DNA of 64,000 nt, from contig NZ_CP151943.1 in the NCBI RefSeq assembly GCF_038592905.1, positions 3,236,501 through 3,300,500 on the forward strand. The letters run 5' to 3'. Positions within the stretch are counted from its first letter, which is position 1; each line of letters starts with the position of its first letter. A program made the translations under genes and the position numbers. Below the pieces are notes generated by a model. It worked only from the letters and a program-made list of their open reading frames with translations, had not been told where the DNA came from and did no database searches. The DNA is from Neobacillus sp. FSL H8-0543. Its GTDB lineage: Bacteria; Bacillota; Bacilli; Bacillales; Cytobacillaceae. Below are positions 21,439 through 48,909 of the stretch, one piece after another.

Positions 21439-21499
21439 CATGTTGAACTTTTGATGTTCTTAGTTTAAGATATATAGAAATATTCTAAAATTAAATATT

Positions 21500-21735
21500 C
21501 AAGTAATGATAGGAATTAGTAGTATCTTATCTCCCTGTTTTTAGAGAGCTGATGGTTGGTGGAAATCAGTACATAGATAAGTGCGAATTACTCCCTTGAA
21601 CTTTCTTTGCGAAAAATGAGTAGTAAAGAACGGACGAACCGTTATTCGATTGAGTGGAAGAGAAATCTTCAACAAGGGTGGTACCGCGTTAACCACGTCC
21701 CTTTTTTAGGGGCGTGGTTTTTATTTTTTTAAAAA
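21500..21735 (+). promoter_or_regulatory. Tyrosyl T-box leader of tyrS
   Basis: The 312-bp gap before tyrS holds the T-box core AAGGGTGGTACCGCG at 21674-21688, an AGAGAG/GGTTGGTGGAAA stem I region, and a UAC tyrosine codon at 21589-21591 in the expected specifier loop (GAATTACTC). The terminator stem AACCACG.CCC / GGGGCGTGGTT with a T-run lies at 21691-21730. Uncharged tRNA-Tyr should bind and prevent termination. Confidence 0.92.
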
Positions 21736-23389: not shown

Positions 23390-23683
23390 TTATTCCGTAT
23401 TGGAGAGATCTAACGAATCCGCAGTTATTCTTCCATCTCGGACATCAATATTTCCTTGTATTGTCCCATCCTTAGTAATCACGTTTACAATATATGTTCC
23501 TTCACCAGGATAGTAACCAATGCCGTTAATTTGAAAGGACTCTTCCGGGTAATGTGTCTTCAGGTACTCAGTAACAATCTCTTTACTTTCTGACCTTTTA
23601 ACCGGGTTTCCGTTGAGAAAAAGGTAAATAAAACCGACAAGTAGCAACAGAACTACCGCAAACGAAATTGGCCTAACTCTCAT
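23390..23683 (-). CDS. Membrane-anchored small protein with PepSY-like domain
   Basis: 97 residues with AAGGGGTAA ahead of the ATG. Hydrophobic helix at ~8-24, then an extracytoplasmic segment: 'SKEIVTEYLKTHYPEESFQINGIGYYPGEGTYIVNVITKDG' resembles a PepSY/DUF3139-type fold. No neighbour suggests a role. Confidence 0.6.
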   Translation of the reverse strand: MRVRPISFAVVLLLLVGFIYLFLNGNPVKRSESKEIVTEYLKTHYPEESFQINGIGYYPGEGTYIVNVITKDGTIQGNIDVRDGRITADSLDLSNTE

Positions 23684-23778
23684 ATTTTACCCCTTCTTTC
23701 ATGTCATCTTTTCATTCTATTTTATAGTGATTTAGTGTAAAGTTACACTATTTTATAAATAATATTTAATAAAAGAAC

Positions 23779-23892
23779 AAAAAAGGAGCCTGGTACAAAA
23801 CGTACCAGGCTGAAATTATGGGAAGTTTTAAGAGTAAGTCCCTAAAACCGATTAACTAATTAAGTTACCTTTATAATAAGCTACACATGTGT
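23779..23892 (-). ncRNA. Candidate small RNA, copy 1
   Basis: Minus-strand promoter TTCACA (23926-23921), 18-bp spacer, TATAAG (23902-23897). Start expected near 23890-23892; end at terminator stem AGCCTGGTAC / GTACCAGGCT (23811-23802, 23796-23787) plus six U, so about 112 nt. An internal stem pairs AAGGUAA with UUAC-U-CUU; compared with the other copies' AAGAUAA/UUAUCUU this is a compensatory change. A single-stranded CUUCCC precedes the terminator. Confidence 0.68.
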
Positions 23893-23949
23893 AGAACTTA
23901 TAGTGAACTTGTGTGGAAGTTGTGAAGATAATTGCTTGATAAAAAAAGC

Positions 23950-24063
23950 AAAAAAGGAGCCTGGTACAGATTGTACCAGGCTAAAATTATGGGAAGTTTT
24001 AAGATAAGTTCTCAAAACCGATTTAACTAATTAAGTTATCTTTATAATAAGCTACACATGTGT
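23950..24063 (-). ncRNA. Candidate small RNA, copy 2
   Basis: Promoter TTCACA (24097-24092), 18-bp spacer, TATAAG (24073-24068). Start near 24061-24063. Internal stem AAGAUAA/UUAUCUU, unpaired CUUCCC, then terminator AGCCTGGTAC / GTACCAGGCT (23982-23973, 23967-23958) with a U-run. Length about 112 nt. Confidence 0.68.
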
Positions 24064-24118
24064 AGAACTTATAGTGAACTTGTGTGGAAGTTGTGAAGAT
24101 AATTGCTAAAAAAAAGAC

Positions 24119-24233
24119 AAAAAAGGAGCCTGGTACAGATTGTACCAGGCTAAAATTATGGGAAGTTTTAAGATAAGATCTCAAAACCGGTTTAACTAAA
24201 TTAAGTTATCTTTATAATAATCTACACATGTGT
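24119..24233 (-). ncRNA. Candidate small RNA, copy 3
   Basis: -10 box TATAAG (24243-24238) with an 18-bp spacer to TTCATA (24267-24262); the -35 box is one base weaker than in copies 1 and 2. Same internal stem, CUUCCC and terminator (24151-24142, 24136-24127). About 112 nt. Confidence 0.62.
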
Positions 24234-24360
24234 AGAACTTATAGGGAAGATGTGTGGAAGTTATGAAGATGAAAACTTTTGATCATAAACCATTTGAAAA
24301 ACTTCGTGGAGAAACATGGAGTAAAAATGAATAAATAATCTAATAATAAATTTGCATGTA

Positions 24361-25038
24361 ATGAATGATGAAAAGGGGACGATTTGTTTTAGTAAATATC
24401 TAACGAAGATGGTGTTATTGTTTCTTTCCTTTGCGTTGATTTTTCCAGCATTCACAAAAGTGGAGGCAAACGAAACAGTCGTCACGCAAAATGCGCATTT
24501 AAGTGAAAAAGCTGTACAGTTTAAGTGGGACATGCGTAAGCTATGGCTTGACCACTCATTATGGACAGGAAGGTATGTAGTAAGTGCATTAGCGGGTCTT
24601 GAGGATCAAGAAAAGGTGTTGGCAAGACTCCTAAAAACCATGGATGATACAGGGAATCTGATAAAGCCTTATTATGGAGAAGAAGCAGGTAACAAGCTGG
24701 GGCAATTATTACGTGAGCATATCCTGCTTGCTGGAAAAGTGGTGGCAGCTGCCAAGAGCGGAAACCAAGCAGATCTAAAAAAATTCAATAAAGAATGGTA
24801 TAAAAATGCAGATGATATTACAGATTTTCTAGCCAAAGCCAATCCGAATTATAATAAAAATGAATTAAGGGAAGCACTACACATGCATTTGAAAATGATA
24901 ACAGATACTGTAGTAGCAAGGCTTAAAAAGGATTGGGATGCTGATATTCTTGCCTTTGATAAAAATGAAGATCATTTAATCAAACTGGCCGATACGTTAT
25001 CAGAAGGAATCATCAAGCAGTTTCCTAATAATTTCTAA
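24361..25038 (+). CDS. Secreted alpha-helical protein of unknown function
   Basis: About 225 residues. A basic n-region and hydrophobic core 'MVLLFLSFALIFPAF' end in 'VEA|NETV', a good signal-peptidase I site. The mature part is nearly all helix, with repeated 'LREHILLAGKVVAAAKSG', 'LHMHLKMITDTVVARLKKDWDADILAFDKNEDHLIKLADTL' segments containing spaced His residues, like a four-helix bundle that could bind metal. ATG 24361 lacks a ribosome site; AAAAGGGG at 24371-24378 lies after it, so the true start may be an unusual codon further in. No family name recalled with confidence. Confidence 0.7.
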   Translation: MNDEKGTICFSKYLTKMVLLFLSFALIFPAFTKVEANETVVTQNAHLSEKAVQFKWDMRKLWLDHSLWTGRYVVSALAGLEDQEKVLARLLKTMDDTGNLIKPYYGEEAGNKLGQLLREHILLAGKVVAAAKSGNQADLKKFNKEWYKNADDITDFLAKANPNYNKNELREALHMHLKMITDTVVARLKKDWDADILAFDKNEDHLIKLADTLSEGIIKQFPNNF

Positions 25039-27530: not shown

Positions 27531-27810
27531 CTTTCCATTTGCCCGAACGGGTGCTACTTTTCGATTCAAGGGCAAATGGGGCTTCGCCATTTACCCGAAC
27601 GGGTGCTACTTTACGAATTACGGTCAAATGGAACCTCGCCATTTGCCCGAACGGTACCCCTTTACGAATTACGGTCAAATGGGGCCACGCCATTTGCCCG
27701 AACGGGTGCTACTTTACGAATTACGGTCAAATGGAACCTCGCCATTTGACCGAACGGGTACCGCTTTTCGATTTAGGGGCAAATGGGGCCAAGCTATTTG
27801 CCCGAACTAC
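27531..27810. repeat. 52-bp palindromic tandem array A
   Basis: CC(A/G)TTTGCCCGAAC-like blocks recur at 27535, 27587, 27639, 27690, 27742 and 27794, i.e. every 51-52 bp. Each unit carries an inverted repeat CCATTTGCCC ... GGTCAAATGG around a CCCGAACGGG core. It occupies most of the 456-bp divergent gap 27451-27906. The unit is not a multiple of three and open frames through it are not coding. Confidence 0.9.
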
Positions 27811-43480: not shown

Positions 43481-43529
43481 AATGCACGTTGCGAGGCGAC
43501 TCCGTAGAACAAAACGCGGTTGAAAAGTA

Positions 43530-43815
43530 GGAGAATGTTTCATAAAGATGATGAAAGACAAAAGAAGGTTGGAAAGTAAGTGAAATGTCTTTCATCAAGG
43601 GAATGAAAGACAAATGCAGGTTGGAAAGTAAGGGAAATGTCTTTCATCAAGGGGATGAAAGACAAATGCAGGTTGGAAAGTAAGGGAAATGTCTTTCATA
43701 AAGGGTATGAAAGACAAAACCCGGTTGGGAAGCAAGGGAAATGTCTTTAATAAAGAGGATGACAGACATAACCAGGCTGGGCAACTAGGGAAATGTCTTT
43801 CATTTACGCCCTTGG
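43530..43815. repeat. 52-bp palindromic tandem array B
   Basis: GAAATGTCTTTCAT blocks recur at 43582, 43634, 43686, 43738 and 43790 (period exactly 52), with a diverged unit from 43530. Each has an inverted repeat around a short loop: TGTCTTTCATC ... GATGAAAGACA, then a ~19-bp GGTTGGAAAGTAAGG linker. It fills the 357-bp gap between convergent genes. Sequence unrelated to array A but same period. Confidence 0.9.
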
Positions 43816-48735: not shown

Positions 48736-48776
48736 TCTCTCCTTAGTTTTTTTGCGTGGGAGGTTCTCGAACCACG
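48736..48776 (-). promoter_or_regulatory. preQ1-I riboswitch
   Basis: Minus strand CGTGGTTCG-A-GAACCTCCCACG followed by CAAAAAAACTAAGGAGAG. This is the small class-I aptamer with its A-rich pseudoknot tail, where the CTAAGGAG tail overlaps the ribosome site of queT. Translational shut-off by preQ1 is expected. Confidence 0.85.
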
Positions 48777-48909
48777 GTTAACTCACGAACTACAATACTA
48801 ATGTATATGAATCTTCTAGTCAATATATCTTTTTTAAAAAATATTGGATAAAAATGCAATTTATTCTATGTTCACCTTGTTCATTTATTTACCATATGCT
48901 AAACTATAG

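Follow-up and report, generated by a model that had tools for sequence, protein, structure and literature searches.

Three tandem units on the minus strand

The window analysed here, a stretch of 64,000 nucleotides from Neobacillus sp. FSL H8-0543, contains at positions 23769-24270 three units of ~171 bp each, arranged head to tail on the minus strand. TRF reports the same span as a repeat of 3.0 copies with 92% matches and, when the units are aligned, the mean column identity among the three is 89%, in agreement with a preliminary description of this DNA in which three tandem minus-strand units of ~170 bp were proposed. A DNA search of the whole genome matches only these three units. To the left of the array lies a short minus-strand gene with a YfjL_N domain (23390-23683) and to the right, running divergently on the plus strand, a gene for a 228-aa protein (24352-25038) that no Pfam or NCBIfam model matches at the thresholds applied.

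The copy furthest upstream, copy 3, starts with four 11-bp direct repeats, which together with a -10 element make up a BaeR-like box at 24212-24271 (row L001:1762-1821 of alignment A3, half-site count, and a model match at G000:C1:3260712-3260770 with an E of 1.3e-15). The -10, TATTAT, is at 24219-24214. The predicted small RNA (sRNA) of ~89 nt extends over 24119-24207 from a putative start to a T-run (row L001:1669-1769 of alignment A2, fold and match to the model R1 described below). It carries CUUCCC in its linker at 24160-24165, as seen in the sequence and in an alignment of 64 units, and ends in an intrinsic terminator at 24119-24151, for which both-sided changes are found at 6 of the 8 stem pairs, with 99.5% of cells paired, across 52 units. 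Copy 2 has its repeats and -10 at 24042-24101 (A3 row L001:1592-1651; box model E 5.8e-17), with TATTAT at 24049-24044, a predicted sRNA of ~88 nt, again with a putative start, at 23950-24037 (A2 row L001:1500-1599; fold), CUUCCC at 23991-23996 and the terminator at 23950-23982. In copy 1, furthest downstream, the corresponding features are at 23871-23930 (sequence and three-unit alignment; box model E 5.8e-17), 23878-23873, 23779-23866 (~88 nt from a putative start; A2 row L001:1329-1428; fold), 23820-23825 and 23779-23811. The linker motifs of these two copies are identified from the sequence and the 64-unit alignment, and their terminators from the fold and the both-sided changes in the aligned units; all of the features are on the minus strand. 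Both the rho-independent terminator and the CUUCCC of the preliminary description are therefore present in all three copies, the motif lying between two predicted hairpins.

Elsewhere in the window there are two unrelated tandem arrays with 52-bp units, at 27535-27807 (5.3 copies) and 43509-43803 (5.7 copies). An Rfam search also identifies a T-box leader at 21497-21705 (plus strand), ahead of a gene that is presumably tyrS, and a PreQ1 riboswitch at 48737-48781 (minus strand).

The units form a conserved family

The units cannot be put down to chance, nor are they confined to one strain, as the preliminary description had allowed that they might be, since unit DNA is matched in 55 of the 61 Neobacillus genomes. 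We built the covariance model R1, a type of search that the same description had suggested, from 52 aligned units (alignment A2) with the structure named by hand. With this model the RNA is found in 63 of the 193 genomes of the family and in 5 of its 25 genera, the matches comprising the 55 Neobacillus genomes and 8 genomes of four other related genera. Outside the family there were none: of 397 genomes from the order two were matched, both of them Neobacillus. Among the 55 matching Neobacillus genomes, many of which are drafts, 13 have one copy, 37 have two, 3 have three and 2 have four. The copies are often in tandem or flank a single gene such as bioB, and the genes around them vary from species to species, which fits a trans-acting RNA. 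In a tree of the 52 units the window copies group with the copies from genome G046, while other two-copy genomes are partly split by copy.

No Rfam family matches the units above its gathering score. Relaxing the search to E ≤ 10 gave nine sub-threshold matches, of which the best was suhB with 19.4 of 41 bits and none was named LhrC, which we take to be one of the Rfam families. Among the matches listed in a literature search, outside which most subscription journals lie, none dealt with the sRNA of these units or with a BaeR-like sRNA regulator in Bacillales. Judged by sequence and predicted structure, the units are a real multicopy sRNA family, with no Rfam counterpart and LhrC-like in plan.

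A nearly invariant linker between two predicted hairpins

Each unit would give an RNA of ~90 nt, made up of a 5' hairpin (hairpin 1), the nearly invariant linker AAAACUUCCCAU and the terminator. Over the 64 aligned units, one of which is present twice, mean column identity rises from 0.42 ahead of the box to 0.86 within it and 0.90 from the -10 onward; hairpin 1 has 0.69, AAAACTTCCCAT 0.99 and the terminator 0.79, and beyond the terminator the value drops to 0.45. An exact CTTCCC is present in 60 of the 64.

The covariation score of the whole structure exceeds those of all 500 shuffles. For the folding energy of the 5' part the mean z is -2.26 relative to dinucleotide shuffles, with 40 of 52 units below -1, and at least 13 pairs are predicted in all 52. 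Both-sided change is seen at 1 of the 9 alignable pairs of hairpin 1. In other genera the sequence of this hairpin differs yet, by eye, can still pair with itself, as AAAGAGTT/AACTCTTT in locus L104 illustrates. RNAalifold on A2 recovered the terminator alone, because hairpin 1 is too variable to align; the hand-named structure of R1 also served for counting the pairs. The helix AAGAUAA/UUAUCUU of the preliminary description did not hold up: it is complete and bulge-free in 3 of 52 units, and complete in 19 if one bulge is allowed, and in single-sequence folds its 3' strand pairs locally. The UUCCC is predicted to be unpaired with a mean probability of 0.78, a value that is above 0.8 in just 30 of the 52 units and falls as low as 0.08.

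We propose that the CUUCCC of the linker would pair with G-rich Shine-Dalgarno regions and so lower the translation of target mRNAs. Sites with extended complementarity to the linker are not enriched in the strain's own genome, where there are 108, three antisense self-sites included, as against 175 for the reversed pattern. Two of 27 linker-complement sites with 1-2 mismatches are just before a possible start codon and we have not counted these as targets. As the long complement is not enriched, targets, if any, would pair by a short seed. The same lack of enrichment, and the presence of one invariant motif in several copies, would also be in keeping with the RNA being a sponge for another RNA or a protein, or with the tandem boxes serving mainly to titrate the regulator, with no silencing of mRNAs. 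This seems unlikely, as the body of the RNA is conserved as well as the box, and UCCC motifs have been described as the sites of mRNA pairing in LhrC, RNAIII, RsaE, SprD and FsrA (PMC4132741).

The upstream box and a BaeSR-like two-component system

The block upstream of each predicted RNA consists of TCTTCACAA, TCCACANAA, TCTCTATAA and TCTACANAA, which start 11 bp apart. At the sequence level these four direct repeats resemble TCTNCANAA, the consensus published for E. coli BaeR (Yamamoto et al, 2008, quoted in PMC3799227). In 50 aligned boxes, half-sites with at most one mismatch from TCTNCANAA occur at offsets 2, 13, 24 and 35 in 49, 46, 20 and 49 boxes, respectively. In total 77 sites are exact and 92 have one mismatch, whereas mononucleotide shuffles give 1.55 and 14.65 and the opposite strand 0 and 2. 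A plain scan of the genome for the repeats gave four overlapping hits within the three units plus two elsewhere, and the box at the genome's own two-component locus, described below, was detected solely by the box model.

This model, R2, was built from sequence alone (alignment A3) and covers the box together with its -10. At E ≤ 0.01 it matches 107 of the 193 family genomes and 20 of the 25 genera, well beyond the range of the sRNA, and at E ≤ 0.001 it matches 24 of the 397 order genomes, 20 of these outside the family. We inspected 48 loci, 40 of them hand-chosen stretches and 8 from other families, which hold 52 box sites of at least 14 bits without the tandem sRNA; the loci were chosen, not sampled. 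At 35 of the 52 sites a divergent OmpR-type response-regulator gene, with at least 67% identity to the one in the genome of the window, is located within 400 nt. In that genome the regulator gene (L187:4336-5055, about G000:C1:1426335-1427054) adjoins the kinase gene (L187:2985-4373), and the neighbouring box gives a weak match that covers only model positions 4-48 (25.5 bits, E 7.0e-5). Whereas several relatives have a gene for a second kinase, none was seen in the 10-kb stretch of this genome.

The kinase is found at E ≤ 1e-80 in 92 of the 193 family genomes. All 92 have the box at E ≤ 0.01, compared with 15 of the 101 kinase-free genomes. Of the 61 Neobacillus genomes, 53 have both kinase and sRNA, 6 have neither, 2 (G005 and G025) have the sRNA alone and none has the kinase alone, a co-occurrence with a Fisher p of 5e-7 when the lists are compared by hand and genomes are counted regardless of relatedness.

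The regulator has the Pfam domains Response_reg and Trans_reg_C and the kinase HisKA and HATPase_c, with HAMP at 22.6 of 25 bits just below its cut-off, so that the adjacent genes have the make-up of an OmpR-type regulator with a HAMP/HisKA/HATPase kinase. We use BaeR-like to denote a resemblance, since the regulator scores 210.8 of 380 bits with the NCBIfam BaeR model and slightly higher with RpaB, CreB, MtrA and PhoB, all below their cut-offs. The kinase likewise remains below the cut-offs of the BaeS models (233.4 of 500 and 216.9 of 603 bits); its best NCBIfam model is WalK, through the kinase domain, while the BaeS model aligns over residues 15-446 of 462. The closest solved structure to the regulator is E. 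coli BaeR (4b09, E 5.6e-51). Taken with the position and distribution of the box, this suggests that the sRNA family is probably part of the regulon of the BaeSR-like system.

That the box instead belongs to another regulator or a repressor, with the BaeR-like system no more than a frequent neighbour, could be argued from the sub-cut-off scores of both proteins, the slightly better fit of the regulator to other OmpR-family models, the box matches in kinase-free genomes and the weakness of the box at the genome's own two-component locus. Such an arrangement would sit poorly with a regulator gene beside 35 of the 52 box sites, the co-occurrence of box and kinase, the agreement of the repeats, spaced by 11 bp, with the BaeR consensus from the literature and the finding that BaeR is the best solved relative, and we regard it as rather unlikely. 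CssR/HtrA was also considered for the regulator and rejected, as by eye there is no such box upstream of the genome's four Trypsin_2 genes.

Several of the two-component loci have genes nearby with names linked to tungstate. TupA is the best name in L203 and L160, TupB is among the matches of a permease in L189 and an ATPase in L187 is closest to WtpC, all of these scores being below the equivalog cut-offs. Because of these neighbours, and because tungstate resistance in Salmonella requires BaeR (PMC3160322), our guess is that the signal may be tungstate or some other metal-linked envelope stress.

The -10 element and the predicted start

Two positions in the box region resemble TATAAT. TATAAG, which the preliminary description had paired with TTCACA across 18 bp as the promoter, agrees with it at 5 or all 6 bases in 37 of the 50 aligned boxes and at no more than 3 in 9. 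TATTAT, 24 bp downstream, matches at 4 or 5 positions in all 50 and at 5 in 33. TTCACA-N18-TATAAG also sits inside the array of four 11-bp repeats. TATTAT is thus the likelier -10, which would place the start ~7 nt after it and make the RNAs ~90 nt long rather than the 112 nt first estimated. The palindrome CTACACATGTGTAG, formerly assigned to the start site, would on this reading be upstream of the transcript; just 3 of the 50 boxes contain it in exact form, and these come from two genomes, that of the window and G046. The original scheme, a 112-nt RNA starting at CTACACATGTGTAG with the palindrome as an operator or 5' hairpin, draws on the good TATAAG matches in most boxes, but is in our judgement improbable given that the downstream position never falls below 4 matches, that TATAAG is in register with the 11-bp repeats and that the palindrome is exact solely in those two genomes.

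A role for the units as small-peptide genes or as the leader of a downstream gene is very improbable, for although 10 of 52 units have a closed frame of 13-16 codons (16 being the longest), 28 lack any closed frame, each aligned unit has a terminator of its own at the end and the neighbouring genes vary between species.

Other possible outputs behind the box

A C/U motif, counted as YTCCC or CTCTCT, with a predicted terminator after it is found within 360 nt downstream at 31 of the 52 box sites; when 600 random windows were drawn from these loci, 5% had such a module. It was found at none of the 8 box loci from other families. In other genera a second, longer and conserved putative RNA of ~190-310 nt is seen behind the box (L153:2065-2375, L154:2102-2415, L203:4499-4790, L144:2014-2240, L151 and others; alignment A4). 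In several genera it has the elements GGNTCGGAAAANCC and GAAAATCG...CGATTTTC, with AAACTTCCC or AAAACCTCYC motifs ahead of the terminator, and it has no Rfam match in the loci scanned. At the two-component locus of the window's genome the box is likewise followed by a possible further RNA, with CUCCC, CUCUCU and a strong terminator, at L187:5145-5290 (about G000:C1:1427144-1427289).

At 10 box sites (5 in the family and 5 of the 8 outside it) the box is just ahead of a gene whose small product looks secreted and carries a CHGxxGMM-like motif. Examples of ~80-95 aa are at L204:1195-1482, L198:4364-4618, L162:3776-4012 and L238:1575-1823; the L204 protein belongs to no Pfam family. At L200:4145 a box match precedes a NapC/NirT-type multihaem cytochrome gene, with CXXCH-rich ORFs around it. 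As both the C/U-plus-terminator modules and the CHGxxGMM-like protein genes follow the box, it seems that a single box serves several outputs, with small RNAs prominent within the family.

A proposed regulatory pathway

We consider it probable, from sequence evidence on conservation, structure and the box, and from the linkage and co-occurrence of the box with the two-component genes, that each unit is a gene for a ~90-nt trans-acting sRNA that is activated by a BaeR-like regulator and silences mRNAs through its CUUCCC. The regulator, encoded elsewhere in the genome beside the BaeS-like kinase, would bind the four 11-bp direct repeats and, from its position upstream of the TATTAT, activate transcription, with the 5' end of the transcript just downstream of TATTATAAAG. 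The RNA would then fold into the 5' hairpin and the 3' terminator, leaving the linker AAAACUUCCCAUAAUUU exposed, and the tandem copies would raise the dose. On a broader view, which we hold to be evenly balanced, a BaeR-type stress regulator of Bacillales would run a translational-silencing arm in which the box is fixed and drives C/U-rich anti-Shine-Dalgarno RNAs from two or more unrelated families: the tandem RNA of the window and the longer RNA of ~190-310 nt, in many cases within the divergent promoter of the regulator. Between genera the switch would have been retained, and the RNA behind it exchanged or evolved anew.

If the proposed pathway is correct, the units would add an RNA family absent from Rfam, together with most of its circuit, namely a sensor kinase, a response regulator, a DNA site and a multicopy sRNA. 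The LisRK-LhrC design would then exist in soil bacilli with an unrelated RNA and a different regulator, and the convergent evolution of two-component/sRNA stress control would become directly testable. The box model also provides a ready means of listing candidate targets of the regulator across 20 genera of the family.

Comparison with known systems

The likeness to enterobacterial BaeSR is in BaeR as the closest solved structure, in the alignment of the kinase with the BaeS model and in the resemblance of the repeats to TCTNCANAA, whereas the scores fall below the NCBIfam cut-offs and here there is often a second kinase across the box. RsaE and FsrA share with the window sRNA a C/U-rich single-stranded pairing motif (PMC4132741). 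Unlike RoxS/RsaE and FsrA, the C-rich anti-Shine-Dalgarno sRNAs of low-GC Gram-positive bacteria, the window sRNA is without an Rfam match. RoxS is a single-copy RNA under ResD.

The closest parallel in plan is with LhrC1-5 of Listeria monocytogenes, which depend on LisRK and exist as several nearly identical genes, each with a separate promoter and terminator (PMC4132741), as is predicted for the window copies. In both, a UCCC motif is exposed between two hairpins, by prediction in the window sRNA, and pairing with Shine-Dalgarno regions is proposed; the UCCC motifs of LhrC recognise that region of the lapB mRNA (PMC4132741). Two-component control has been demonstrated for LhrC (PMC4132741) and would apply to the window sRNA by inference, through a BaeR-like box and regulator in place of LisR. 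LhrC is 111-114 nt long with three redundant C/U motifs, in loop A, the linker and the terminator loop, whereas the window sRNA is predicted to be ~90 nt and each window copy has one CUUCCC, in the linker. The central idea of the preliminary description, an LhrC-like multicopy plan with a C/U motif, thus stands, with conservation in both sequence and structure, and our best reading is that the window encodes an LhrC-like but unrelated multicopy anti-Shine-Dalgarno sRNA, putatively activated by a BaeSR-like system.
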